Shown here: positions 43,566 through 61,434 of the stretch, piece by piece
How the letters are laid out: each line of letters starts with the position of its first letter
How positions within the stretch are numbered: position 1 is the stretch's first letter
Assembly: GCA_023150835.1 (NCBI GenBank)
Contig: JAKLKB010000046.1
Span: 1-63,264, forward strand
Reading direction: 5' to 3'
Source: Myxococcota bacterium
Lineage (GTDB): Bacteria; Myxococcota_C; UBA6777
Length of the DNA: 63,264 nt
The notes under the pieces: model-generated
Databases searched by the model: none
Seen by the model: only the letters and a program-made list of their open reading frames with translations
What the model was told of the DNA's origin: nothing
Translations under genes and position numbers: made by a program

Positions 43566-43994
43566 CTACGGCCTTGCAGGACCGGGTTGGCTGGGATGAG
43601 TCACGATACCGATGCGCTGAAACCCCACACCTGTCGCGACATCCATGATCTCCACCACGCGCCGATGTTCGACTTGCGCATCCGCATCGATCGCGACTTG
43701 TGCTTCGGGCGATTTTTTGAAGGCGTCCAAAAGCGCTGCACGAAGGGCATCGATCCCAAGACGCTTCCCTTCAAAAATCACGGTGGCTCCGCCCTCTTCT
43801 TTGGGGATCTCGATGGTCAAGCGCTTGTCTTGGAGTGATCCGCTATGTTGGGCTTTGGGGCGTTGGATCGAGATCCCGGGCGCAGACACAAAGGTCGTCG
43901 TGATCAAAAAGAACAGCAACAATTGAAAGATCACGTCGATCAATGGCGTCATATCGAGTTCGGGGATCGCACGCCTTGGTCGTCGAAAGTTCAT
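43566..43994 (-). CDS. ExbD/TolR family biopolymer transporter
   Basis: 142 residues from ATG at 43994, which overlaps the ExbB-like stop by 4 bp (ATGA). One transmembrane helix holds the essential proton-path Asp: DMTPLIDVIFQLLLFFLITT. The periplasmic part (IEIPKEEGGATVIFEGKRLG, AIDADAQVEHRRVVEIMDVA) is a typical ExbD/TolR fold. With ExbB it forms a proton-driven motor of the TonB, Tol-Pal or Agl-Glt type. No TonB, TolA or gliding gene is adjacent. Confidence 0.92.
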   Translation of the reverse strand: MNFRRPRRAIPELDMTPLIDVIFQLLLFFLITTTFVSAPGISIQRPKAQHSGSLQDKRLTIEIPKEEGGATVIFEGKRLGIDALRAALLDAFKKSPEAQVAIDADAQVEHRRVVEIMDVATGVGFQRIGIVTHPSQPGPARP

Positions 43995-44707
43995 CGGCCC
44001 TCCGACCCGATTTCAGATCGCGCTGCCGATGAAACAGCCGCGTCCACCGCGACTTCCCGCGACTTTGTGGATTCAACGGATCTTGCGGTCTCGCCTTCCA
44101 GTTGTTGAAGCGTATTGTCCATCAATAGGCTGATATCGCTTTGCAGATCCAACAACAGCCGATCCACCCGCGCCAACAAAAACCGATACCCCACATACGC
44201 AGGGATCGCCACGATCAAGCCTGCCGCTGTCGTCAACAACGCAACCCACACACCTCCCGCCACAAGGCGCGGATCGCCTACCCCCCCCAATTCCACACGT
44301 TGAAACGCCACGATCATCCCCAACACCGTCCCCAACAACCCCAACAACGGCTCCAAACTCGCCACCATCCCAAGCGAGCCGATCCCGCGCTCCATAAAAA
44401 AGGCCTCGCGCTGGCCCGCCTCCTGCAAAGCATCTTTCAACGCTTCACGATCCCGCGAAGCCTCCAACTGCGAAAACATCACCCACGCCAAACGCGCCAA
44501 CGCGCTGCTTTCTCGCTGGCACAACACTCGCGCTTCGCTCCATTGCTTCAAGCGGATCAACTGCAACAACTGCCGCAACAGCATCGGCGGGTTGATCTTG
44601 TGCCGTTGCAACGCCCACATCCGCTCCAAAAAAATCGACAAACCCACCGCCGATCCCAAAAGGATCGCGTACATCACCCACCCGCCCTTTTCAAACAAGC
44701 TGATCAT
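43991..44707 (-). CDS. ExbB/TolQ/MotA family proton channel protein
   Basis: 238 residues from ATG at 44707, which overlaps the preceding gene by 4 bp (ATGA). Three hydrophobic segments are visible: WVMYAILLGSAVGLSIFLE, LEPLLGLLGTVLGMIVAF and VALLTTAAGLIVAIPAYVGY, with the family motif GLLGTVLGMI and the conserved GLIVAIPA. It forms the ring subunit around the ExbD dimer in the inner membrane. The chain J-like/HTH - ExbB - ExbD is joined by 4-bp overlaps, indicating one mRNA. Confidence 0.92.
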   Translation of the reverse strand: MISLFEKGGWVMYAILLGSAVGLSIFLERMWALQRHKINPPMLLRQLLQLIRLKQWSEARVLCQRESSALARLAWVMFSQLEASRDREALKDALQEAGQREAFFMERGIGSLGMVASLEPLLGLLGTVLGMIVAFQRVELGGVGDPRLVAGGVWVALLTTAAGLIVAIPAYVGYRFLLARVDRLLLDLQSDISLLMDNTLQQLEGETARSVESTKSREVAVDAAVSSAARSEIGSEGR

Positions 44708-45813
44708 CCGTGCGATACTCCTTCTTGTGTTCGCCAACCCCAATAGGAAGCCAAGTAGTCAATCAACACTTTTCGGACCTCCACATCGATCGCACGTGCG
44801 TACGCCGTCAATGCAGCACGCACTTGACGGCTCGATCCCAACATCGCGTAGTGTTCGGCTTCTAAAGCCGCAAGATAGTCCTTTGAAACGCCGCAATGCT
44901 GGGCCACATCTTCCAAAGATATCGAGCGTTCTTCGCGGATCTGCCGCAATCTCTGTCCCGAAAAAGGTCCGTTCCATAGGCTCGGAGCCTCTTCGATTTG
45001 TACCTGCTCGCTTGGCCTCGTCTCTGTTTCTATCGACGCACTCAGCCCAACATCCGCTTTGCTCGATGTGCTCAACCCGAATCCCGCTCTCGTTGATGCT
45101 GTCGGCCTAAACTCCAAATTCATCGGCGCGCTTGGTTTGGCGTTTTTATTCGTCGGTCCGCTTGGCTTGGCATCCGTGTTCCCTGTGGCGTTCGTGGGTC
45201 CGCTCGGCTTGGCATCCGTGTTCCCTGTGGCGTTCGTGGGTCCGCTCGGCTTGGCATCCGTGTTCCTCGAAGCACCCGACATTGGAACAACCAGCCGAAG
45301 ATCTTGTGTTTGTGGCCGCAAGGATAGAAACGCCTCTTTCGCCTGCGGCTTCTCGGCTGCTTTTGGATGCCTGACTTGTTCATTCCGCTGTCCCTGCGTG
45401 CTTTGTGAAGACGGATCTTGGCGTTCTTTGAAGGAGCGCTCCAATTCTTCTGCTGCGGGGGACTCCGCTTCGGCGGAAAACAAACGCGGCGAAGAGCGCG
45501 GATCGCCTCCCTCTCTCTCCTCCAACAACCGAGCCGCTTCAGGGGATACAGAAAAAGGCGTGAGATCGGGAAACGAGGGCTGGCTTCGCGGCGCATCGTC
45601 CACAAAGGTCTCGTTCGCAGAGGTGCGCAAACGTTGATAGGCTTCCTGTAACATCAGCAAAAAGCGTCGGCGATCTTCGACACGCAACAATCCATAACTC
45701 GCCAACCCACCGATGCTATAGCGCCGCATCAAGCAACGGTACGCTTCCTCAACGTCCGCCCAATTCGCCTGCGCATCCAACTCCAACAAGCGCAGATCTT
45801 GGATCCGTGTCAT
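44704..45813 (-). CDS. J-like and RodZ-type helix-turn-helix protein
   Basis: 369 residues from ATG at 45813, with AAGGAG 7 nt upstream. The first ~75 residues resemble a J domain (DLRLLELDAQANWADVEEAYRCL and FLLMLQEAYQRL), but the HPD triad is absent. The middle (~80-280) is a charged, Pro/Ser-rich linker with 14-residue repeats (TNATGNTDAKPSGP). Residues ~285-350 form an HTH_25/RodZ-like domain (LRQIREERSISLEDVAQHCGVSKDYLAALE). There is no membrane segment. It overlaps exbB by 4 bp and could tie the motor genes to a polarity or cytoskeletal system; the role is unknown. Confidence 0.8.
   Translation of the reverse strand: MTRIQDLRLLELDAQANWADVEEAYRCLMRRYSIGGLASYGLLRVEDRRRFLLMLQEAYQRLRTSANETFVDDAPRSQPSFPDLTPFSVSPEAARLLEEREGGDPRSSPRLFSAEAESPAAEELERSFKERQDPSSQSTQGQRNEQVRHPKAAEKPQAKEAFLSLRPQTQDLRLVVPMSGASRNTDAKPSGPTNATGNTDAKPSGPTNATGNTDAKPSGPTNKNAKPSAPMNLEFRPTASTRAGFGLSTSSKADVGLSASIETETRPSEQVQIEEAPSLWNGPFSGQRLRQIREERSISLEDVAQHCGVSKDYLAALEAEHYAMLGSSRQVRAALTAYARAIDVEVRKVLIDYLASYWGWRTQEGVSHG
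45158..45266. repeat. In-frame 42-bp minisatellite in the J-like/HTH gene
   Basis: About 2.6 copies of a 42-bp unit (plus strand contains GGCTTGGCATCCGTGTTCCC), encoding TNATGNTDAKPSGP. Adjacent copies are identical or nearly so. Confidence 0.88.
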
Positions 45814-45887
45814 CAAAAACTCCTTTCCCGAAAGAACACCATCTGTCGCCCGAAAGCGCGATCAAAATTCCTTTTGTCTTCGGTGAT

Positions 45888-46796
45888 TCAGCCCGAACTG
45901 TTCGGTGGTTGCGAGTCTGGGGGTAAAGAAGGATCGTCGTCTGCGGACAACAAACCCAAGAGATGCTCCGTCACACCACGCATCTGTTGCACCCAGCGCG
46001 AGTCGGGAAACTCAAATACAAATGGGCGCCTTGAAGCCGACGTCATCGACAACCGCTCATCGTATTCCAAACTCCCCAATGGAACCGTTCGCAAGCCAAA
46101 AAAACGCCGGATGACCGGCGCGATCTCTCGCTCAATGTGGCTATCCGCGATCTGTGAGATGCCATTGACCAAGCAATACACGGGCTTTTTGCGCAACGCA
46201 CGACGAAGTGTATGCGCACGCGGTGGATCTTGCGCACGCAAGGCCGTCAACCACGGCATCGGTAGCCAACCTTGCGATGGAGGCGCGCTTGTTAAGCTCC
46301 CTTGCATCTTCCACAAACACAAACGGCGCAAAAAGAAATAATCCCTCTCCATCCCTTGAAAACTCGGAGACGATACCAAGATCCCCACATCTGCTTGATC
46401 AAATAAGCGCGTCTGCCACGCTCCTGCTCCTGAACCTACATCCCACAACGTGATATCCGCATCCAGCGCACCCAATGACACAGAAAATCGCTCCGCCTGC
46501 GAAGCATCCGAAAGATCCCGTAGATCTTGATACACACCCGCGATCAATCCGAGATCTTTAACCCCCGTCGGCAACACCACATCCCGCGCTTCTTGTTCGC
46601 CTGACAGCACATGTCCCAAAGAGTATTGAGGATCTTCCAAACCAAAAAAAGTATGCAAGTTCGCTCCATTGAGGTCGGCGTCCACCAACACCACACGCAG
46701 CCCCAACTCCGCGATCAAGATCCCCAACTGCACCGCGATCAGGCTCTTTCCAGTACCACCTTTTCCACCGCCAATGGCGACACTCATCGAACACAC
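45888..46796 (-). CDS. MinD/ParA-like ATPase (FlhG type)
   Basis: 302 residues from a GTG at 46796 (GGGAG ~11 nt upstream); an ATG at 46787 is an alternative. The deviant Walker A GGGKGGTGKS, VVLVDADLNGANLH and the switch region DITLWDVGSGAGAW identify a MinD/ParA superfamily ATPase, closest in pattern to the FlhG/MinD-like group. Such proteins dimerise on ATP and position cellular machines. The C-terminal ~30 residues are Pro/Ser-rich, with no obvious amphipathic membrane-targeting helix. It lies 74 bp upstream of the J-like/HTH-ExbB-ExbD unit, so it may position that motor; this is inference. Confidence 0.85.
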   Translation of the reverse strand: MCSMSVAIGGGKGGTGKSLIAVQLGILIAELGLRVVLVDADLNGANLHTFFGLEDPQYSLGHVLSGEQEARDVVLPTGVKDLGLIAGVYQDLRDLSDASQAERFSVSLGALDADITLWDVGSGAGAWQTRLFDQADVGILVSSPSFQGMERDYFFLRRLCLWKMQGSLTSAPPSQGWLPMPWLTALRAQDPPRAHTLRRALRKKPVYCLVNGISQIADSHIEREIAPVIRRFFGLRTVPLGSLEYDERLSMTSASRRPFVFEFPDSRWVQQMRGVTEHLLGLLSADDDPSLPPDSQPPNSSG

Positions 46797-46837
46797 GCGT
46801 CGATTCTCCCTTATCCATCGGCCTTTTCGGCGATCGA

Positions 46838-48358
46838 TTATTCTCTGTGACTCCGCAAATCCTCTCGCGATCCTGCCATTTCTTCAAACAAACACGATAC
46901 CGCCTCCGCATCCCCCGACAACCACGTCCGCAGATCCAACCACAGACAACCTCGCTCCAACAACCCGATTATCGGGATCGTTCGTGTACGCAAAGCGGCC
47001 TCAAACAAGGACACCGAATGCACCGCACTCCCCAAACACAAACGAGCTGTCGGCAACGTCAACGCAGGCAAAGATCCCCCCCCAACACGCGCCTCCGCTT
47101 TCTCCCACGACAAGGACCAACCCCCTCGTTTGAGCGCAGCACGCCATCTTTGTACCCAGAACTCTGCTTGTTCGTATAACGCTTCGGCATCTGTGGATAA
47201 TGCGGATAATACAGGGATATCGCGCCACGCAATATCGTCCCCGTACGCATAAACCTGCACTGTAGCTTCCAACGCCGCGAGTGTCAACTTGTCCACGCGC
47301 AAAGCCCGCGCAATCGGCAGCTTTGCAGCTTTCTTGATCCAAGACGCCTTGCCTGTGATCACTCCACACTGCGGCCCCCCAAACAGCTTGTCTCCACTCC
47401 ATGTCACAACATCCGCACCTGCCCGATGCAACGCTCGCACCGACCAACCACGCTCTCCCCAATGCGCGGGCGGCTCCATTAACATCCCACTCCCTTGATC
47501 CACCATCACCGAAACTCCCCGCCGATGCCCCAATCCCACCAACGCCTCGGCCTCCACTTCCTTCACAAATCCTTCGATCACAAAGTTGCTGCGGTGGACT
47601 TTCAACAACAATCCTGTCTCCTCGCTGATCGCTTGCTCGTAATCCCGTAAGTGCGTGCGGTTGGTAGTCCCGACTTCACGCAAACGCACCCCCGCCACTT
47701 CCATCACCTCGGGCATCCGAAAAGAACCACCGATCTCCACCATCTCCCCTCGTGACAAGATCACCTCACGCCCCGCTGACATCGCTTGCAACATCAGCAT
47801 CACCGCCGCCGCATTGTTGTTCACCACCAACGCCGCTTCTGCCCCAGTCACTGCACACAACGCCGACTCCAACAACGATTGCCTTGAACCCCGCTCTCTT
47901 CGCTGCAAATCAAACTCCAAGTTGGTATACGTACCCGCCAACTCTTGCAGCCGCTCACACGCCAAACGCCCCAACGGAGCGCGGCCAAGATTCGTATGCA
48001 ACACCACACCCGTCGCGTTGATCACCCGAACCAAACGAGGCCGCTCCCGCTCTTCCAACTTCTCTCTCGCCCTCTCTTCCCATCTCTCCGAATCCACCGC
48101 CCAAACCTCGACCTCCTCCCCTGCCTTCAATCGCCCCCGCCTATCCGCCAACAACTCCCTTAACGCCTCGCTCACCCAAGTTCTCGGATAATCCGACAAC
48201 AAACGCTGTATCCCCTCTTGCTCCAACAATCTCCCCAATTGCGGCAGCCCCGCCAACAAACGATGCCTCTCCTGATCCGCACTCACCGTTTGCTCGGCCT
48301 CTGCTTGAACCTCCAAACCCGTTATTTGCCTCTCAAACACACCTTTTTGTTGTGTCAC
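46838..48358 (-). CDS. selA: L-seryl-tRNA(Sec) selenium transferase
   Basis: About 506 residues from a GTG at 48358, with GGGAG 7 nt upstream (a TTG at 48364 is also in frame). SelA hallmarks are present: INATGVVLHTNLGRAPL, YTNLEFDLQRRERGSR, VVNNNAAAVMLML, GTTNRTHLRDY, VDQGSGM and the PLP-Lys motif SGDKLFGGPQCGVI. The enzyme converts Ser-tRNA(Sec) to Sec-tRNA(Sec) with selenophosphate. Length is slightly above the usual ~460. selB, selC and selD are not in the window, so Sec use must depend on genes elsewhere. Its 3' end is 41 bp from the MinD-like gene. Confidence 0.93.
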   Translation of the reverse strand: MTQQKGVFERQITGLEVQAEAEQTVSADQERHRLLAGLPQLGRLLEQEGIQRLLSDYPRTWVSEALRELLADRRGRLKAGEEVEVWAVDSERWEERAREKLEERERPRLVRVINATGVVLHTNLGRAPLGRLACERLQELAGTYTNLEFDLQRRERGSRQSLLESALCAVTGAEAALVVNNNAAAVMLMLQAMSAGREVILSRGEMVEIGGSFRMPEVMEVAGVRLREVGTTNRTHLRDYEQAISEETGLLLKVHRSNFVIEGFVKEVEAEALVGLGHRRGVSVMVDQGSGMLMEPPAHWGERGWSVRALHRAGADVVTWSGDKLFGGPQCGVITGKASWIKKAAKLPIARALRVDKLTLAALEATVQVYAYGDDIAWRDIPVLSALSTDAEALYEQAEFWVQRWRAALKRGGWSLSWEKAEARVGGGSLPALTLPTARLCLGSAVHSVSLFEAALRTRTIPIIGLLERGCLWLDLRTWLSGDAEAVSCLFEEMAGSREDLRSHRE

Positions 48359-48448
48359 GCACAAACTCCCACACTTGTATAAATCGCTGTTTTGTCATAC
48401 GTTTCTATCAATCACGACCTCGTTCTACCCCTGTTTTCTTCGAGTACC

Positions 48449-48520: not shown

Positions 48521-51493
48521 ATGACAAAAAAAGATAACTCGAATCCTCCTGCAACTGCCGCAACAAGCAGCAGTTTCTTCTCAGATATCGCGCAGGATCT
48601 GCAAACCCAAGTCGAAGGTCTGCAGGAACCTTCGACCGAAAACACAGGCACTTCATCCTCCTTCGCCCTTCAATCGGAGAACAGCGGCAAGATCTCTCCT
48701 CTTTCCCACGCTGCCTCCAACCAAAGCAGCGATCTCTTTGACGCGCAATCCAACAATCCCCCCGAATCTAGCCTCTATCGAGATCCCGCACGCACAGCAG
48801 CGATCGCCAACGGCCAACACCAAGAAAGCACCCCCTTGCCCTCTGTCCCCGCCATCCTACACGCCGAAGGTCTCGATCAACCCGATCCCGGCGCAACGAT
48901 CATCGAGATGGCCGCCATCGATCTCGACCTGCTCAAGCAGCTCCATCAAGCCCAACAACAAAACGCCCTCCCCCCCAGCGAATCGCGTCACCCTGACGAA
49001 GAAGCCCCTGTCCTCTTGCATTCCGTCGACCTCAACGCCGAAGACGATCCACCCCTCCTCCTTGAAAACCCCACAGCTCCGCCCTCTTCGCCTTCTTCCA
49101 AACTTCCCCCTCCACCCGCCCTCTCAACGCTTTCCTCTCGCGCCCACGCACTCGAACAACAAGCCGTCCCCTCGAACCTCCACACCACCAAATCAAACGA
49201 TGGCTTGTCCCTTGTCTCCGATATCTCTGGCGACAAGTCTTCGAGTCAAGAACAAGATCCCGATGACGAAGGCGACGAAGCTGGCAAAACCCTCATGATG
49301 GGAGCGATCGACGAAGCCACCGCTGCAAAGATCCTTGCCGCCCAAGACAAACACATCGCATCCCTCCAACAAACCGCCGAAGAAGAAACCCTCGACACCC
49401 ACTCCGGCGATCACCACGAAGCCCTCACCCAAGACGGACTCCCTGCCGTCGAAAATCCTGAGTTCGAACTCGGCGTAGGCGACGAGATCTCGATCGAGAT
49501 CGACCTCGACAACGACAGCCCCGCCCTGCCAACTCCACCTCCCAGCATCCCACGTGGCATCATCCCTCCGCCTCCCCCCAGCACCCCCCGCAACGCCCCA
49601 CCACCCGATCTCGACCTACCCCTCGCTCCCCCAAGCGCCCCCCACATCGAACCCCCGCCTCCACCCGATGCCGCCGGTCGTGTCGTCGTCCAAAAGAAAG
49701 CCAGCGCCTCGGTGCTTCGGCAAAATCCCGTCAAATGCCCACAATGCAACCACCTCTCCCGCGATCCGATCTGGTGCGACAACTGTGGCGCGTCGCTACA
49801 AAAGCCCGAACAACCGCCATTTACGTCATCCAAACCCGGTCGCGTCGTTCAGGCCAACAACCAAAACTATCTGCTGCAACGCGATGTCTCTCGATCCAAC
49901 GACCGCGTGATCTGGGAAGCCTCCCTCCAAGGCGAAGAAAATCCCGCGCCCTACATCGTCGAAGAACTCTCTCCCCTGCGTTTTCGATCTGGATACCAAC
50001 AACTACCCGATCTTTCTAAAACCTGCATCCATCGTCCTTTTGCAATCGAAGAACACGAAGACCGCGTCTTTCTGTTTTCTTCACCACTCCCCGGCTACCG
50101 CTTGTCCCGCGCTTTTGAAGAACGACGTGTCTTCTCTTTCTCCGAGATGCGGCACATCCTCAACCACATCGCTCAAGCCATCCAAACCATCCACCAACAC
50201 AACTTGCTTTTCCTCCAATTGGATGCTCGCCAGATCTGGCTGCGCGATGAACGCGATCCCCGTATCCTCGGCCTTGAACGCCTCTACAACGAAAAAGTCC
50301 CCCTCCACCTTCGCCCTCGCCGTGAAGGTTATTCTGCCCCCGAGATCTATCAAGCTCAACCCACTCTCGGCCCTCACACCGATATCTTTGCGCTCGGTGC
50401 TCTTCTTCATTACATGGTCAGCCTCGCCCGACCCTTCAATCACCTTGACACCGCCAAAGTCGATATCCCTTCCCCTCGCGTCCATAACCTCACCTTCCCA
50501 ATGGGACTGGATCATGTGATCTTGCGCGCCCTCCATCCCAAGATCCCCCGACGCTACAAAGATGTCGAATCCTTCTTACGCGAATTCAACCGCGCCATCG
50601 ACGAATTAGAAGAACGCGAAAAACAGCCGAACCTCCGCCTTCAACTCGCAGTCGGCCACGATATCCACATCGGCGTCAGCAAAGGCAACCGTAACCCCGT
50701 CAACCAAGATGCTCTGTTTTGGCGATACGACCGCAATCGCGGAAAAGGACTCTTTCTTGTGGCCGATGGGGTCAGCCATTGCAACTACGGCTCTGGCGAT
50801 CGCGCCTCCTCTCTCGTGATCCAAGCCGCCCGCAAACGCTGGGATACCTTGCTCAAACAACCCATCATGGAAGAGAACACCACCCCCGAACAACGCCGCC
50901 AGATCATCCAATCGATCTTTGACGCCGCAAATGTCGCGATCTGCGCAGAGATCAACCAACGCTACGAACGCATCGACGGCTATGTCGAAGACGTCATGGG
51001 TTCGACCTGCGTGGCTTGCTTCCTTGACGGCTCCCACATGACGCTCGCCAACCTCGGCGATTCACGCGGCTACCTCAAAACCGAACACTACATCGAACAG
51101 ATCACCGTCGATCACGACTACAAAACCGCCCAAATGCAGATCAAACAAGATATGCGTGCCCTGCAAAAACTCACGGGCGGAAGCCTGATCACCCGCTGCG
51201 TCGGCTCATTTCGCAAAGATGAAAAAATGAAGCTGCTACCGCGTGATCTCGAACCTGACTTCTTTGAACTGCGCCTACGCACAGACGATATCATCGTCAT
51301 CTGCTCGGATGGACTCAGCGATTACGCCGGTGCCAACGAAGAAGAATCTCGATACGCCATCGCCAAACTTCTACAAGCCTATCCTGACCCCTTGAGTGCT
51401 TGCTTCTGGCTCATCGCCCTCGCCAACCAAAATGGCGGCGGCGACAACATCTCTGTGATCGAGATCAAAGTCATCGGACCCACACAATCCTAG
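48521..51493 (+). CDS. Zinc-ribbon / pseudokinase / PP2C phosphatase fusion
   Basis: 990 residues from ATG at 48521, with GAGGAAG upstream. Residues ~1-400 are low-complexity, acidic and Pro-rich. A zinc ribbon (CPQCNHLSRDPIWCDNCG) lies at ~405-425. Residues ~440-690 have the outline of a protein kinase C-lobe (HILNHIAQAIQTIHQHNLLFLQLDARQIWL, REGYSAPEIYQAQPTLGPHTDIFALGALLHYMV), but the HRD and DFG motifs are replaced by FLQLDA and ILGLER, so it should be inactive. Residues ~705-985 form a PP2C phosphatase (GNRNPVNQDALFW, LVADGVSHCNYGSGDRAS, MGSTCVACFL, LGDSRGYL, ICSDGLSDYAG, GGGDNISVIEI). It is followed 53 bp later by an FHA gene, a plausible phospho-signalling partner. Confidence 0.88.
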   Translation: MTKKDNSNPPATAATSSSFFSDIAQDLQTQVEGLQEPSTENTGTSSSFALQSENSGKISPLSHAASNQSSDLFDAQSNNPPESSLYRDPARTAAIANGQHQESTPLPSVPAILHAEGLDQPDPGATIIEMAAIDLDLLKQLHQAQQQNALPPSESRHPDEEAPVLLHSVDLNAEDDPPLLLENPTAPPSSPSSKLPPPPALSTLSSRAHALEQQAVPSNLHTTKSNDGLSLVSDISGDKSSSQEQDPDDEGDEAGKTLMMGAIDEATAAKILAAQDKHIASLQQTAEEETLDTHSGDHHEALTQDGLPAVENPEFELGVGDEISIEIDLDNDSPALPTPPPSIPRGIIPPPPPSTPRNAPPPDLDLPLAPPSAPHIEPPPPPDAAGRVVVQKKASASVLRQNPVKCPQCNHLSRDPIWCDNCGASLQKPEQPPFTSSKPGRVVQANNQNYLLQRDVSRSNDRVIWEASLQGEENPAPYIVEELSPLRFRSGYQQLPDLSKTCIHRPFAIEEHEDRVFLFSSPLPGYRLSRAFEERRVFSFSEMRHILNHIAQAIQTIHQHNLLFLQLDARQIWLRDERDPRILGLERLYNEKVPLHLRPRREGYSAPEIYQAQPTLGPHTDIFALGALLHYMVSLARPFNHLDTAKVDIPSPRVHNLTFPMGLDHVILRALHPKIPRRYKDVESFLREFNRAIDELEEREKQPNLRLQLAVGHDIHIGVSKGNRNPVNQDALFWRYDRNRGKGLFLVADGVSHCNYGSGDRASSLVIQAARKRWDTLLKQPIMEENTTPEQRRQIIQSIFDAANVAICAEINQRYERIDGYVEDVMGSTCVACFLDGSHMTLANLGDSRGYLKTEHYIEQITVDHDYKTAQMQIKQDMRALQKLTGGSLITRCVGSFRKDEKMKLLPRDLEPDFFELRLRTDDIIVICSDGLSDYAGANEEESRYAIAKLLQAYPDPLSACFWLIALANQNGGGDNISVIEIKVIGPTQS

Positions 51494-51546
51494 CCATCGC
51501 ACGATCTACCCTTGGCGCTCTGCTCGATACAAGGAAGCTTAACTCC

Positions 51547-52317
51547 ATGATCATCTGCCCTGTCTGCGAAACTGAAAACGAAGCGCACGAACCCTTTTGC
51601 ATCCTCTGTGGTGCAAAACTACAGCCCTCTACCCCAAACGCCCTCCCCAACACGACCTCCTTTACCTCGGAGATCGAAACGGCTCTTGATGATCTCCTCC
51701 CTCTCCCCGATGATATCGGCGAACAACCCGCTTCGTCCCCACACACTCCGTCCCTGCGCCCCAACCCACTCCAAATCAGCCCCTCCCACACACCCAACTC
51801 CGGCACACCAACATTCTCCCCTCAGCGGCTCATGACCACACGCAGCCCCGAGATGCTACCCGTCACAAACACCGCTGTCATCGACGAAAACGATCAAGAC
51901 CTCAGCACACAACACTTCCGCTCCAAACCCGCCCCTACACCCAACCGTACCCCCGTCCTTCCCTCCTACAATACCGAAGTCCCTGCCCCCGGAACCCTCT
52001 GTCTGATCGTCTACTTCCAACGACGCCCCGCCCTCTATTTTCCCGTCATCTACGACGAGATCTTGATCGGGCGCACCGACCCCGCTTCCAACTCTTACCC
52101 CGATCTCGATCTCACTCCCTTCGATCCCGATCTCGCGATATCACGCAAACACACCTACGTCTACCGCGAGCAAGGCGCTTACTTTATCTACCCCATCAGC
52201 AACTCCGGTACCCAAGTCAACCAAGAAATGGTCGATATCGGTACAAAAAAACTCCTCAAAGAAGGCGACGTCGTGATCCTCTCTGGTCGCCTTGCCATCC
52301 GCTTCGCCCGCTCCTAA
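51547..52317 (+). CDS. Zinc-ribbon FHA-domain protein
   Basis: 256 residues from ATG at 51547, with AAGGAAG upstream. The N-terminus is a zinc ribbon (CPVCETENEAHEPFCILCG). A Pro/Ser/Thr-rich linker (~25-155) leads to a C-terminal FHA domain (~165-250) with the key residues IGRTD, SRKH (phosphothreonine pocket) and NSGTQVNQ. FHA domains bind phosphothreonine peptides. Threonines in the linker could be kinase substrates. The gene ends in two tandem TAA codons, and its last codons are duplicated twice downstream (69-bp repeat). It probably works with the phosphatase fusion encoded 53 bp upstream. Confidence 0.9.
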   Translation: MIICPVCETENEAHEPFCILCGAKLQPSTPNALPNTTSFTSEIETALDDLLPLPDDIGEQPASSPHTPSLRPNPLQISPSHTPNSGTPTFSPQRLMTTRSPEMLPVTNTAVIDENDQDLSTQHFRSKPAPTPNRTPVLPSYNTEVPAPGTLCLIVYFQRRPALYFPVIYDEILIGRTDPASNSYPDLDLTPFDPDLAISRKHTYVYREQGAYFIYPISNSGTQVNQEMVDIGTKKLLKEGDVVILSGRLAIRFARS

Positions 52318-55110: not shown

Positions 55111-55146
55111 GCGGATACATGAAATGCCATGTATCCGCTTTTTTTT
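55111..55146 (+). terminator. Strong intrinsic terminator
   Basis: An 11-bp perfect stem, GCGGATACATG (55111-55121) and CATGTATCCGC (55128-55138), with a 6-nt loop, is followed by eight T residues. It is oriented on the plus strand, ~100 bp upstream of the ATG of the giant gene. It must end a transcript coming from the gene-poor region 54.0-55.1 kb, or act as an attenuator for the giant gene. Confidence 0.85.
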
Positions 55147-55246
55147 GCGCTCCGCTCACAACCTACACACTCCCTGTGCCGAACCTCCCGATCAGATGCG
55201 CTCACACGCCGCGATATCGAAACCACCCACAACTCACGGATGTCCC

Positions 55247-58200
55247 ATGCCTGACCTCCTCTTGTGGAAACAACTTCTCTCTCTTGATCTTGCTTCGCTT
55301 CCTGCTCCCCCCCCCCACACGCTCCACGCCCTTTTGCTCGCGCAAGCCGATCTACCCATCGAAAAGAAAACACCTTATCTTCAAACACTTGCACAATATT
55401 TCCCACACGCCCCCGCTTCTCTGCGCTCCGCCATCGCCATGTTCCTTGGTGGCTCACACGGCCCGATGGCATGGGCCTTTTGGCTCGATGCACTCGACCA
55501 AGCGGATGCAGATACTTTGCCTTTTCTCCTCCAAGCCTACCGTCAAAGCTGCGCCCATGATCCCGCACGATGGGTCCATGCGCTGTTTCACCCCGATCCT
55601 GCCATACGCCTCCAAGCCCTTTCCAAACGCCCCGAGGCCTTTCCCTCTCACTACGAGCTGTTGCTGTTTCCCGATCCCAACGCCCACGCCGCTTTGTGCG
55701 AACGCTTTCGACATCGCCCTCCCCAAGGCCCAGAGATCGCCACCCTGCTCCAGCTCCATCAAGCCCAAGCCATCGACGTATCCACCCTCCAACCTTGGCT
55801 ACACGAAGCGTTCCTCCGACCACAAAACGCCCTCGATCTACTCCACCACCTTCCCGCCCCCTCCACCCAAAGCACCTACCTCCCGCCTGATCCGGATGCC
55901 CTCTGGCATCACCTCGCCTCTTCTCCCCAACAGTCCGACCTTCTCGACGTCTTGCTTGCTCTGCTTTGGCCCGCTCCTTCTTCCCCCTCGCAAGCCTGCA
56001 CCGTCTTCCTTCGCTCCGCTTGCCTCGCGATCCAACAAAACAAACTCGCCCCATCACAGCATCTTCGCCTTGCCACCGCCCTTTTGCGCGTCGGCTCTCG
56101 TTCGACCCAATGGACCGAAGACGCCGCCCGCTTGCTCTTGAGCGCGATCCCTCGGCTCTTTGGAACACGCTATCTCTCCCTCTCTTTGCGCCAACAAGTA
56201 GCCCGCCAAATCCTCGATGATCGCCCTGCCGTCCGCCTCTTTGATCCACTCGCAGAATGGATCGACACCCCTCTTTGTCTTCGACCCGACGGACATTTCG
56301 ATCTGATCGTCATCGCAGGTCTGATGGGCCTTGATAAATCCAATCCCTTTCAACACCTGCTTTCTCATCTCTCCCCTCAAATCCTCTTTGACGCTGTCCT
56401 CCGACACCCCGAAGGCGCAGTACGGATGCTTCGCCTTCAGCCGCATAGTTCCGTCGATCGGCTCAGTTACGACGCCCTGCTCGGCCTCGTCCTTCAAAAA
56501 GCACACACCTCCCCTCAATTCGTGGCTTACGCTCTACTCCATCTCCCCAACAAGCCTCTCGCTCTCTTCTGCGAACAGATGGCCGAACAGCCCCCTGCCC
56601 TCGACCTTTTGCTCCCATACTTGACCCACGCCCTTGATCTCCTGTGCCTCCCTCCCTCCCGAAAAAACCGAAAGCTCCAGCATCTCGCGGCTGTCTTGGC
56701 CAAAACCCTTTCTCCACAACACGCACGCCCCCTGCTTTATGCTCTCGCTCAAACCGATCAAAACGCCCTTTCCATCGAGATCCTCGAACAGATATCCCGA
56801 CGCCTCCCTCCCGATCAACTCGCCCACAAGATCGCCCAACTCCCCCTGCGCTCCTTGCGTTCGATGCTCTCTCTGATCGATCAAGCCAGCGGCTTCTCTC
56901 TTGAAGCCGAAGAATCCGTCCTCCTCACTCTCCAACACCATCCCGATCCCTTCATCCAGACGTGGCTCCGTCAACAACAACGCCTCCGACTCGCTCAAGG
57001 CAGCGAGAGCCGACAACGCATCGAAGATACCCCTCGACCACTCCCCGAAGCCACGCTCCAACGCATCGCTCGCTGCGCAGATATCGATCTCGAAGACGCA
57101 CTCCGTCCTTGCTACGACTTCCCCACCAAAGGTCTTTGTCACGCACTTCAACGCCGAAAAAAACCCACCCCTGAAGTCGAAGTCCTTGCCGCCCTATTAA
57201 TTTGCCACGATCCGCTCCATCTCATCCTCGAACAATGGAAACGTTTTTCTGACGAATCTCCCGCCCTTTACGAGCAACTCGATCAACGGATGGCAACGCG
57301 CTGCTCCGATATGCGCGCCCTGCCCCTGTGTGGTCTTGTCTGGATGTATCGGTGGGAGCAACACCTTCACACCCTCGCACCTGCCCTACTCCGATCTCCC
57401 GAAGCCTTCGCCTCCTTTCTTCAACAAGGGCTTCAGATCCCCATCATGCCCTTGCGATGGCGCTTTTGGAAAGCAGCTTGTTTGCTTCTCAAAAAATGGC
57501 GATGGCACCCTCCCGCGCTTTTGCACCTCCTCTTCTCTGCCGAACTCGAACAACTCTTGCTCTCTGTGATCACTCTCGGCCACTCCGCCCCAAACACCGC
57601 TGCTACCCTCTTCTTCGACGAAACCCTTCAATCCATCGCCACCGATATCTTGCTCCTCCTTCACAAACTCCCCGCCGCACTGCCGACTGTGCGCTCTCTC
57701 CATAACCATCTCTTGCCTTTTCTTTCCAGCCTCCCCGAAAACCTCCGTACCACCGTACTCCTCTGGATGCGCGAACAAGACTTTTCTTTCCTCTCTCCCC
57801 CTGCTCTCCTCTCCCACACACACAACACGGAAAGCTTGCTCCACTCCATCCACCATCTCCACGCACCCGATGCCCTCGCACTCTATTGCCTCGAAGACTC
57901 GCCGCTCCTCGTTGAAGCCGCAGCCACCAAGCTCATCGGATACGGCGAATCCGGCTTACAACGCCTGCTCCCTCTGCTTTCTCTCTCCCACCAAAACACT
58001 CCCCCTGCGCAACTCCGCGTGCTGATCCGACTTGTCTCCTCATGGCCCGAAAGCCCCAGCCTTCGCGCACTTCGCGCCCAACTTCAACTAGCCCTCGACG
58101 CCATATCTTCCGACAACACCGCTCCTCATCCCTCCGTCTCTCCCAACGATCCCGTCCCCTACCAACCCTCCACACCGCCAAGCCTTCCCATCGAAGATCG

Positions 58201-60874
58201 CCTCCCCACGCTGCTCCCCGCACCCAACGCTCCTCAACGCTCCTCTTCAACCACCCCCCCCACCATCGAGATCCAACCCTGCTTTCTGCTTACGCTTGCC
58301 TTTCTTGAACGCGGAGAACGCTCGCTCTCTCGATATCTTCCCCTTCTTGCCCGCATCCCCGCGAACTCTCCCTCCCCGATCTCAAAACGCCCTTCACACC
58401 GACACATCCACATCCACCACCGAGCGCAAGAAACGCCGCTCTCTCCTCGCAACACTCCCGCGATGTGGTTGACAGAGAACGATTGGGAGCGACTTCTTCG
58501 TCTCGGGATATCCCAAGAGGAATGTGCGATCTGGTTTGCTACATCCGATCAATACCACGCTTACGCCCCCGCCATCCGCTCTCTCTTACAGCTACTTCCT
58601 GAAAACACCCTATCCACCGACACTCTCACACCATCCACACCACATACCCAAAACACCCTATCCACCGACACTCTCACACCATCCACACCACATACCCAAA
58701 ACGCCCTATCCACCGACACTCTCACACCATCCACACCACATACCCAAAACGCCCTATCCACCGACACTCTCACACCATACGCCCCCAAAACCCTATCCAC
58801 CGAGCGGATCGCGGCTCGCCTTGATGCGCTGGAGGGATTTCTTCTTTGCGGCCCTTCTCGCCTTGAAGAACTTCGTCTGCAAGCGGCAAAACGGCTTTTG
58901 CACTATGGCCGATGGCTTGGTTATCCTTTGTTGCTGCATACAACTCTTTACCAACAAAAAAGCAGCGAAGAACTACTTTCGATCTTGCGCCTTCTGCCCA
59001 TTTCTTTGATCGAAAGCACCGCTCACGGGCTTTTGATGAACCATGCCGACCCCTCGTTCGAGCAGATCTTTTTGAAAACGGTCTCCTTGCTTCCGCTGAC
59101 GCTCGAACAAAAAGAACGAATCGCTCGGCCTTTTTTGCAACACGCCCAACATGCCCTCACCCAAGAGCGTGCGCTGTCTTTGCATCGCCTACCCACCGAG
59201 CGCACCGAATCCATCCAAAAGCTTGCACGCCTCTGTGCTTGGGGAATCCGCCTTGGGCGGCAGATCTCAGGAAAAGTCTTTCGAATTCGTTTGATCGCAG
59301 GCCGTGATCTCGGATACACCCGCCTCGAAACACCGCGTATCTTCATCAATCCCCTTCCGCTGTTGCGCCAAGAACGCCACGCTGAGGAGATCGTCAAAGG
59401 TTTGATCTTGCACGAGTTGGGACATCACCTCTACCACGCTTCCCCCTCTTCTCGGGAGATCTGGAAACAAGCCCAACAAGAGGGCATTCAACCGCTGCTC
59501 AACCTTGTCGCCGATGAACACCTCGAACGAAACCTGCGCGCTAAAGAGCAAGAGTTCGGCCATTCCCTCCAATCTCTCGCTGCCTACGGGTTCCAACACA
59601 ACCAACGCGAGATCCGCGCCTTCTTTCTTCTCGATCAGCTAGGCCCCTCGGCATTGGAGACCCTGACACAATCTCCTCCCACAGCAGCCCGTATGCACGG
59701 GTGCATCCGCATCCACACAGGCGGGATCCTGCGCGAGGCTGAACGACGAGGGGCCAGCTTTTCTCGATTTATCCGCGCTTTGCGCATGGGACTTGGAAAC
59801 CGCTTCCGCGATCCCCTCGTTGCCAAAGCCCTCAACCTCTTCCACAAAGACTTCCGCCACCTCGATATGCAAGGACTCTATCAGATCGCCACCAAACTCC
59901 GCGATATCTTCTCTTACCAAACCCGCCTACTCGATGACCTCGACACCGAACATACCCTTGGTTGCGACCTGACCGAGATCTTTCGTGACAGCTACGGCCT
60001 CACCGACGAAGAACTCCAACGCGCCATCGAAGAAGAACTCTACCCACGCCCACACGCCCAACCCTCCGCCCTCGACGAGATCGAACGCCGAAATATCAAC
60101 CTCTCCAAAGATCTGCACTTTTCCCCCATCCACCACGTCCAACCGCTGCTCTACAGCGCCGAAGCCGCCCAACAATACGCTCAACAAGTCGCCCATGAAA
60201 GCCGCAATCTCCGACGCTACCTCCACCAGCTCGGACTCCACCTCCGTCCCCAAAAACGCCGCGTCCAAGGCCATCACATCGACACCCATGTCCTTCGTTC
60301 CGCGATCTTGCGCGGTGACCCACGCTTTCTCACCGCCCGACGGCTGACTCCACACAACCACCTTTTTCTTGGCGTCTTGATCGACTGCTCTGGCTCGATG
60401 AACGGCGACTCCCTCGAAAAAGCCAAAGCCTTCGCAAGTTTAATCGCCGAAGCCACCGTATCCATCGAAGGGATCGATGCACGCTTCTTCGGATTCAACG
60501 ACACCACACTCTTTGATGCTGGTGATGCCCGTCATTGCGCCATCCACGCACTACAAAGCGCAGGCGGAAACAATGACGCCGCAGCAATGCTCCATCTCGC
60601 CAAACTTGCCCTCGCAAGCAAACGAAAAGCCCGTATCCTCGTCATGATCAGCGACGGTAGCCCCACCGAATGCTCCGTCACCGCCTTGACCGCTCTGGTT
60701 CAACGCATCACCCAAAAAATGCACATTCTCTGCGCACAAGTCGCTGTCCGACCCCTTCCTTCCGCCTCTTTCCCCCACTACATCGAGCTGACCAACGATG
60801 ACATCGCTCTCTCCACCCATCGCTTCGGACAACTCATCGCACGCCTTGTCGCCCAAAGTCTCCGCCGTACCTGA
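55247..60874 (+). CDS. Giant helical-repeat / HExxH metalloprotease-like / VWA (MIDAS) protein
   Basis: 1,875 residues from ATG at 55247; the frame opens earlier but this ATG gives a natural start, although its SD is weak. Residues ~1-1000 are Leu-rich helical hairpins resembling HEAT-type repeats. Residues ~1120-1187 contain about four copies of a 16-residue repeat (NTLSTDTLTPSTPHTQ). A metalloprotease-like site HELGHH lies at ~1389-1394, with ADEHLERN ~30 residues later supplying a possible third ligand. The C-terminus is a von Willebrand A domain with an intact MIDAS (DCSGSM ~1713-1718) and ISDGSPTE. There is no signal peptide, so it is probably cytosolic. VWA proteins often work with MoxR-type AAA+ ATPases; none is adjacent. 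The function is unknown. Confidence 0.82.
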   Translation: MPDLLLWKQLLSLDLASLPAPPPHTLHALLLAQADLPIEKKTPYLQTLAQYFPHAPASLRSAIAMFLGGSHGPMAWAFWLDALDQADADTLPFLLQAYRQSCAHDPARWVHALFHPDPAIRLQALSKRPEAFPSHYELLLFPDPNAHAALCERFRHRPPQGPEIATLLQLHQAQAIDVSTLQPWLHEAFLRPQNALDLLHHLPAPSTQSTYLPPDPDALWHHLASSPQQSDLLDVLLALLWPAPSSPSQACTVFLRSACLAIQQNKLAPSQHLRLATALLRVGSRSTQWTEDAARLLLSAIPRLFGTRYLSLSLRQQVARQILDDRPAVRLFDPLAEWIDTPLCLRPDGHFDLIVIAGLMGLDKSNPFQHLLSHLSPQILFDAVLRHPEGAVRMLRLQPHSSVDRLSYDALLGLVLQKAHTSPQFVAYALLHLPNKPLALFCEQMAEQPPALDLLLPYLTHALDLLCLPPSRKNRKLQHLAAVLAKTLSPQHARPLLYALAQTDQNALSIEILEQISRRLPPDQLAHKIAQLPLRSLRSMLSLIDQASGFSLEAEESVLLTLQHHPDPFIQTWLRQQQRLRLAQGSESRQRIEDTPRPLPEATLQRIARCADIDLEDALRPCYDFPTKGLCHALQRRKKPTPEVEVLAALLICHDPLHLILEQWKRFSDESPALYEQLDQRMATRCSDMRALPLCGLVWMYRWEQHLHTLAPALLRSPEAFASFLQQGLQIPIMPLRWRFWKAACLLLKKWRWHPPALLHLLFSAELEQLLLSVITLGHSAPNTAATLFFDETLQSIATDILLLLHKLPAALPTVRSLHNHLLPFLSSLPENLRTTVLLWMREQDFSFLSPPALLSHTHNTESLLHSIHHLHAPDALALYCLEDSPLLVEAAATKLIGYGESGLQRLLPLLSLSHQNTPPAQLRVLIRLVSSWPESPSLRALRAQLQLALDAISSDNTAPHPSVSPNDPVPYQPSTPPSLPIEDRLPTLLPAPNAPQRSSSTTPPTIEIQPCFLLTLAFLERGERSLSRYLPLLARIPANSPSPISKRPSHRHIHIHHRAQETPLSPRNTPAMWLTENDWERLLRLGISQEECAIWFATSDQYHAYAPAIRSLLQLLPENTLSTDTLTPSTPHTQNTLSTDTLTPSTPHTQNALSTDTLTPSTPHTQNALSTDTLTPYAPKTLSTERIAARLDALEGFLLCGPSRLEELRLQAAKRLLHYGRWLGYPLLLHTTLYQQKSSEELLSILRLLPISLIESTAHGLLMNHADPSFEQIFLKTVSLLPLTLEQKERIARPFLQHAQHALTQERALSLHRLPTERTESIQKLARLCAWGIRLGRQISGKVFRIRLIAGRDLGYTRLETPRIFINPLPLLRQERHAEEIVKGLILHELGHHLYHASPSSREIWKQAQQEGIQPLLNLVADEHLERNLRAKEQEFGHSLQSLAAYGFQHNQREIRAFFLLDQLGPSALETLTQSPPTAARMHGCIRIHTGGILREAERRGASFSRFIRALRMGLGNRFRDPLVAKALNLFHKDFRHLDMQGLYQIATKLRDIFSYQTRLLDDLDTEHTLGCDLTEIFRDSYGLTDEELQRAIEEELYPRPHAQPSALDEIERRNINLSKDLHFSPIHHVQPLLYSAEAAQQYAQQVAHESRNLRRYLHQLGLHLRPQKRRVQGHHIDTHVLRSAILRGDPRFLTARRLTPHNHLFLGVLIDCSGSMNGDSLEKAKAFASLIAEATVSIEGIDARFFGFNDTTLFDAGDARHCAIHALQSAGGNNDAAAMLHLAKLALASKRKARILVMISDGSPTECSVTALTALVQRITQKMHILCAQVAVRPLPSASFPHYIELTNDDIALSTHRFGQLIARLVAQSLRRT
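58604..58808 (+). repeat. In-frame 48-bp minisatellite in the giant gene
   Basis: Units start at 58604, 58652, 58700 and 58748 and are nearly identical at the DNA level; the fourth is partly diverged. Each encodes NTLSTDTLTPSTPHTQ or a close variant. The block separates the helical body from the protease-like region. Confidence 0.92.
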
Positions 60875-61334: not shown

Positions 61335-61366
61335 ATGGCGGGATGGCGGGATGGCGGGATGGCGGG
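61335..61366. repeat. 8-bp microrepeat, four copies
   Basis: ATGGCGGG is repeated four times in tandem, followed by a diverged ATGGCGC. Confidence 0.8.
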
Positions 61367-61434
61367 ATGGCGCAAGCCCTGCCCCGACGAAAACAACGGA
61401 TGATGCGGTGGACGTGATACGATATGTGACCCGT

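Follow-up and report, generated by a model that had tools for sequence, protein, structure and literature searches.

A HEAT-fused, CobT-like HExxH-VWA protein paired with a CobS/MoxR-type ATPase: a probable two-component AAA+ motor-plus-protease machine in bacterial cells

The window analyzed here, a stretch of 63,264 nucleotides that forms contig C204 of a 7.56-Mb genome in 239 contigs (G000), encodes a HEAT-metallopeptidase-VWA protein of 1,875 residues (55247-60874, + strand). By three features that we tested, the protein groups with those CobT-like HExxH-VWA proteins that partner CobS/MoxR ATPases: a C-terminal VWA domain with a MIDAS, a homologous HExxH with an E/D helix, and a paired CobS/MoxR-type AAA protein. 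Its family is a HEAT-fused cellular variant of the published pair of MoxR and metallopeptidase-VWA proteins. The protein is probably the VWA/peptidase half of a two-component AAA+ motor-plus-protease machine in which cleavage would be gated by ATP, most likely of a kind that has so far been described, without a HEAT scaffold, mainly in phages.

An ORF scan of the window leaves the frame open over 1,916 codons (55124-60874, + strand), of which 1,875 run uninterrupted from 55247. The later start is the better call because the orthologues begin there, with MPDLLLW of the window aligning at the 55247 ATG with MSDIVLWQ, MQDILCWQ and VNDIRLWQ. An earlier note on this DNA, made from the letters and their open reading frames, had described the 1,875-residue frame and its HELGHH, ADEH and DCSGSM motifs; the frame is intact with a start backed by orthologues, and the motifs lie at residues 1389-1394, 1422-1425 and 1713-1718 in this numbering. 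As a single sequence, the protein gave little or nothing in NCBIfam and PADLOC scans and only CobT, at an E of 0.1, among solved structures. The HMM searches that the same note had proposed as a check returned VWA and CobT_C below threshold, with no HEAT and no peptidase match for the window protein in Pfam. The models of the DUF2201/COG3864 metallopeptidase-VWA proteins (PF13203/PF09967) gave no Pfam match at E up to 1.

With the C-terminal 607 residues of the window protein as query, orthologues were found in all four relatives from the window genome's family, at 48–98% identity. Alongside the long form (subfamily A, ~1,600–2,000 aa), a second, shorter subfamily (B, ~1,150–1,650 aa) is also present in the window genome and in G001 and G004. 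Profile searches detected the protein in 5 out of 5 genomes of the small phylum to which the window genome belongs, in 17 out of 377 Myxococcota genomes and in 4 out of 294 genomes of the Planctomycetota, the phylum of a Phycisphaeraceae bin. Named records among the matches listed come from Polyangiaceae, Sandaracinus, Myxococcales, "Deltaproteobacteria" and Phycisphaeraceae MAGs, and the family spans at least the groups named. Part of the Planctomycetota spread may be due to bin contamination. In one of these Planctomycetota genomes (L177, G750:C1146) the AAA protein is 100% identical to its counterpart in a Sandaracinus MAG (L104), and this case is probably contamination of the bin.

Identity to the window protein over the core is 43–51% among members and 33% for the most distant one. 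Against the sister species, residues 1319-1875 are 99% identical, and DNA identity to the sister locus (L026) rises from ~90% in the flanks to 99.6–100% in most 250-bp bins between 59250 and 61000, where dS falls eightfold, from 0.33 to 0.04, within a single gene. The pattern suggests recent recombination in a tract limited to the peptidase and VWA domains. Since the core sits in the recombined tract, its low dN/dS against the sister was not used as evidence, and the case for conservation rests on distant homologues.

The N-terminal body of HEAT/ARM-type helical repeats (approximately residues 1-1040, 55247-58366, + strand) is visible only via orthologues, and the ~1,000 residues of HEAT-like helices proposed from the sequence beforehand proved correct. 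Pfam HEAT_2 matches 16 of the 21 orthologous subfamily A N-termini (best 5e-11) and matches subfamily B members strongly (2e-29, 4e-64), while the N-terminal profile of subfamily A matches designed alphaRep/HEAT chains of the PDB at 7e-21. Between the subfamilies the repeats align weakly (95 columns, E 6e-5). The body drifts fast, with 18–27% identity to the window protein among subfamily A members, and its dN/dS against the sister species is 0.25. The repeat hinge pointed out earlier is also real: at 58602-58778 (+ strand) a 48-bp unit encoding 16 aa in frame is repeated 3.7 times in tandem with 99% matches. Because the sister orthologue lacks the array, it is a recent, lineage-specific minisatellite expansion outside the family's shared anatomy. 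A second helical stretch (residues 1181-1318, 58787-59200, + strand) leads from the hinge to the peptidase domain, as placed by position and orthologue alignment.

The putative metallopeptidase domain covers residues 1319-1568 (59201-59950, + strand). Its HELGHH motif (59411-59428) holds the predicted zinc ligands His1389 and His1393 and the predicted catalytic Glu1390; when 33 members are aligned, 31 have H1389 and E1390 and 32 have H1393. Further downstream, the Glu-helix motif NLVADEHLER (residues 1419-1428, 59501-59530) lies on the helix at positions 97-115 of the domain model, where E1424 and R1428 occur in 33/33 and D1423 and E1427 in 32/33. HExxH and the downstream Glu (D-E-x-x-E-R) are found together in 31 members, so that loss of the second His or the Glu, which the earlier note had said would speak against its zinc site, is rare among homologues and is seen in none of the orthologues. 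The sixth HELGHH position varies in the same alignment (H/Q/L/Y), as expected of a non-ligand position. Judged from the alignment, the HExxH and Glu motifs are not chance, and Glu1424 (or Glu1427) is a candidate third zinc ligand. The substrate-recruiting, regulated protease suggested earlier would then be a fair reading of the motifs.

Because VWA domains filled the PDB list of the full core, the peptidase domain was modeled and searched as a separate piece. AlphaFold2 modeled residues 1319-1568 with a pLDDT of 90.8 and a pTM of 0.87, in the order helix, three strands, HExxH helix, helix, Glu helix; the gluzincin feature of an HExxH with a third-ligand Glu on the following helix is thus present in sequence and predicted secondary structure. 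The upper PDB list consists almost wholly of zinc peptidases, with the minigluzincins (abylysin, selecase and jannalysin) nearest, followed by Wss1, M1 aminopeptidases and M48 ZMPSTE24. The match to minigluzincins is weak (Foldseek probability 0.99, E 0.08; VIA Z 6.1–6.2 with 103–104 residues against selecase, a Z at which chance resemblance occurs). From this model we read the domain as gluzincin-like, and the structure prediction that had been proposed as a check points, weakly, to the minigluzincin type of zinc peptidase. Minigluzincins and Wss1/SprT share with the model the helix, the three-stranded sheet, the HExxH helix and the Glu helix, but they are small stand-alone enzymes with a weak fold match and no sequence-level match to the window domain.

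The AlphaFold model of the 557-residue core has a pLDDT of 80. When its C-terminal part was searched with Foldseek, NorD of NorQD (9qhd) came first at 5e-7 and the Rea1/MDN1 MIDAS domains next, placing these nearest to the VWA domain (residues 1704-1875, 60356-60871, + strand). VIA-align gave Z 22.1 against Rea1-MIDAS (rmsd 2.0, 194 residues), a VWA fold with insertions like that of the window protein, and Z 18.0 against NorD (rmsd 4.7, 216 residues). The Rea1/midasin MIDAS domain docks on an AAA ring, and its binding point on the substrate is an acidic residue; in Rea1, unlike here, AAA and MIDAS share one chain, which serves eukaryotic ribosome assembly. On these models the VWA part is nearest to the class that docks into AAA rings (NorD, Rea1/midasin). 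The aligned NorD span (352-638 / 357-645) includes the finger, residues 403-448 just ahead of the MIDAS strand (PMC13036017). A strand-helix-strand extension ahead of the VWA core of the window protein (residues 1665-1703, 60239-60355, + strand) holds this position; it belongs to the low-confidence part of the model, has the motif G..LD..L...DPRIL..R in common with CobT-like proteins, and is a candidate NorD-type finger that would enter the AAA pore. The MIDAS, described earlier as intact, is so in its first motif, DCSGSM (60383-60400, + strand), whose Asp, Ser and Ser occur in 33/33, but it is non-canonical in the loop GGNND (residues 1773-1777, 60563-60577, + strand): the usual Thr, seen as GGT in the CobT-like proteins of phages and Geobacter, is replaced family-wide by NND after the glycines (GGxNND), in 32/32 members with letters there.

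An all-against-all comparison of neighbors found a single conserved gene, of ~370 aa, with AAA_5 as its best Pfam match and a CobS-like phage family annotated "porphyrin biosynthesis" as its best PHROG; a second conserved neighbor was sought around the family loci and none was found. Since antisense frames exceed real genes in GC-rich loci when the longest frame is called, adjacency, defined as within ~1.5 kb and with the contig-end cases L106 and L109 counted, was re-tested by tblastn. The neighbor survey proposed at the outset thereby revealed a CobS/MoxR-type AAA gene next to the VWA protein in 23 out of 31 loci, from both subfamilies (L025, L027-L030, L032, L033, L095, L096, L101-L111, L113, L115, L116). 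It is not adjacent at the window, L026, L031, L097-L100 and L112. The statement in the earlier note that no MoxR-type ATPase adjoins is therefore true of the window locus, but not of most loci, and the window genome does encode the AAA protein on another contig (G000:C73:2339-3451, 72% identical to that of G004). Other unlinked copies lie at G001:C260, G430:C31, G289:C114, G302:C81 and G393:C83, and in G064 the AAA gene is ~15 kb away. At one locus (L101, G314:C36, 5709-17140) two HEAT-peptidase-VWA genes flank a single AAA gene, and one motor may serve two adaptors there.

Co-occurrence extends beyond adjacency. The AAA gene was detected in 18 of the 377 Myxococcota genomes and all 17 that have the VWA protein are among them; the AAA gene without the VWA protein was seen in 1 out of 360 genomes (G367), at a contig edge. 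The distance matrices of the two proteins correlate with r 0.91 overall and 0.80 within subfamily A (0 of 5,000 permutations), kinship not being removed from these values. In a genome examined afterwards (G603), each subfamily has one copy, each copy adjoins an AAA gene and the motifs are intact, so the prediction of pairing held. A stand-alone regulated protease that needs no AAA motor could be argued from the window locus, where the AAA gene is absent, but is very improbable given that all 17 Myxococcota genomes with the protein have the AAA gene, unlinked cases included.

Pairs of this general type are known from viruses. In jumbo phages (group 2.2), a MoxR protein and a metallopeptidase-VWA protein form a pair for which a role in virion assembly with processing has been proposed (Iyer et al., 2021; PMC7824862), though viral CobT has also been argued to be mis-annotated as a peptidase, with cobalt chelation favored instead (PMC8651126). 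A distant match of the window family, the 572-aa protein of Trichlorobacter (L046), carries PF06213 CobT (1e-15) and CobT_C, with the motifs HESAH ... NILEDIRIE ... DRSGSM. The window-family profile (A2) and that of the L046 family (A3), the Geobacter-type CobT-like HExxH-VWA proteins, align from end to end of the core over 445 columns (E 3.3e-18, probability 99), with the HExxH, the Glu helix, the finger motif and the MIDAS in register. In BFVD, a whole-model Foldseek search matched phage CobT-like proteins at 1e-15, as well as the "Metallopeptidase" of cyanophage S-TIM5. The link to phages runs via profile and fold only, because tblastn of a phage collection with the window core gave no match. 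Like the window family, the CobT-like HExxH-VWA proteins of phages and Geobacterales have the HExxH domain N-terminal to the VWA and lie beside a MoxR/CobS-type AAA gene, whereas at ~550–750 aa they are without the HEAT body of 600–1,300 aa found here. Of the combination that the earlier note had flagged as unfamiliar, the peptidase-VWA part is known from phage CobT-like proteins, while the HEAT fusion is unusual; no paper on the HEAT-fused form was found in the literature searched.

The pair also resembles systems that insert metals. NorQ/NorD, the nitric oxide reductase chaperone, likewise joins a MoxR-class AAA to a VWA partner (PMC9976466, PMC13036017), and NorD is the best PDB match of the window VWA region, with the finger region inside the aligned span. 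It differs in that no peptidase is described in its N-terminal domain, its target is cNOR and its gene pair lies in nor operons; no nor genes are conserved around the window-family pair, and by this test the window protein is not a NorD. CobS/CobT of the aerobic cobaltochelatase is again an AAA and VWA pair, and CobT chains are the sole matches below 1e-5 of the A2 profile against the PDB. CobN is required for cobalt chelation. It is absent from 7 out of 8 genomes tested, including the window's and two single-contig Myxococcota genomes with the pair, and for this lack a chelatase role was rejected; the peptidase motif of the window family, moreover, is intact, which sets it apart from CobS/CobT. 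A true CobT with an extra N-terminus draws on CobT_C and CobT chains being the sole sequence-level matches in Pfam and PDB beyond generic VWA, yet with CobN missing from those three genomes it is hardly credible; the classical CobT models give the window protein 12.6 bits (TIGR01651, cut-off 759) and no match (PF06213).

The main rival is a metal-insertion chaperone that cleaves no peptide: a metal bound at the HExxH/Glu site would be handed to a metalloenzyme by the VWA protein, powered by the AAA partner. NorQD (iron) and CobST with CobN (cobalt) are precedents, the closest characterized relatives, NorD (PMC13036017) and CobT, serve metal insertion, and the argument that viral CobT-like proteins are mis-annotated as peptidases (PMC8651126) points the same way. 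However, neither NorD nor classical CobT is known to rely on an HExxH for this purpose, no conserved metalloenzyme gene adjoins the pair, the scarcity of CobN counts here as well, and the general-base Glu, dispensable for a metal carrier, is no less conserved than the His. We therefore consider this explanation unlikely. The reading of the domain as a peptidase appears somewhat likely, because the conserved general-base Glu favors it, but the best-characterized relatives are metal chaperones.

Losses of the site bear on a third role. L031 (9249-14207 in G004:C75), a paralogue and the near family's only HExxH loss, reads YKIGHY instead of HEIGHH, has K at the position of the conserved Asp (AKERVDR) and keeps the MIDAS intact; by its motifs it would be a natural catalytic-dead paralogue, and it lacks the AAA neighbor. 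It adjoins a hybrid histidine kinase with a V4R domain. A distant 833-aa protein of Obscuribacterales (L045) has lost the HExxH, retains an intact VWA/MIDAS and keeps its own distant AAA neighbor, so that an AAA pair can work without the peptidase. Both cases are consistent with an AAA-driven remodeling adaptor, in which HEAT, VWA and AAA do the work, the zinc site is vestigial or structural and the peptidase domain serves for binding. On the flip side, 31 out of 33 members retain all catalytic positions while the HEAT body drifts to 18–27% identity, and such an adaptor is quite improbable as an account of the family.

VMAP/bpMoxR ternary conflict systems combine MoxR and vWA proteins, some with HEAT or, rarely, metallopeptidase effectors (Kaur et al., 2020; PMC7159879). 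The window family differs in being two genes with no conserved VMAP or bpX third gene, and its AAA partner matches the bpMoxR model at an E of 0.002, below the cut-off.

For the motor-plus-protease machine that we favor, we infer a physical complex that could work as follows. The AAA_5 ATPase (C73:2339-3451) would form a hexameric ring, and the VWA domain with the finger N-terminal to it would plug this ring as in NorQD. ATP turnover could then twist the VWA against the remainder of the protein, a step carried by analogy because the N-terminal domain of NorD is not a peptidase. The HEAT body may hold a protein substrate or anchor the machine, and the MIDAS may bind a carboxylate offered by either the substrate or the partner. 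The gluzincin-type site just before the VWA would bind zinc and cut the protein presented to it, and cleavage would in this way be gated by ATP.

To our knowledge, known AAA+ proteases thread their substrate into a chamber (Clp, Lon, FtsH) and the MoxR-VWA class remodels without cutting. A conserved pair whose VWA adaptor carries an intact gluzincin site would, if true, be a third AAA+ layout. More speculatively, and with some doubt on our part, the family could represent a class of AAA+ proteases in cells: the peptidase, instead of forming a separate chamber, would share a chain with the VWA plug, a HEAT arm as long as 1,300 residues would capture the substrate, rotation of the ring rather than threading would present it, and L031, the paralogue with the dead peptidase, would have lost its tie to the motor. 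A conserved pair of the kind described above would also connect the poorly understood phage CobT-like "peptidases" to a family in cells whose partners are clear and which offers two subfamilies and a natural catalytic-dead paralogue, and the question of peptidase or metal chaperone thereby becomes directly testable.

The window holds further genes of interest around this locus. Upstream, one chain (48521-51490) combines a zinc ribbon, a kinase-like C-lobe with degenerate HRD/DFG and a PP2C phosphatase, and is followed by a zinc-ribbon/FHA protein (~51400-52314); the two are probably a pseudokinase-phosphatase signaling pair. They were set aside as partners of the family since they are conserved next to the gene in the sister genome only. 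A compact run on the minus strand (43569-48364), also conserved in the sister genome, encodes ExbD/TolR, TolQ/ExbB, a RodZ-type HTH_25 protein, a MinD/ParA-like ATPase and SelA. Shortly downstream of the HEAT-metallopeptidase-VWA gene, at 61335-61372, lies an 8-bp tandem repeat, ATGGCGGG, in 4.8 copies.
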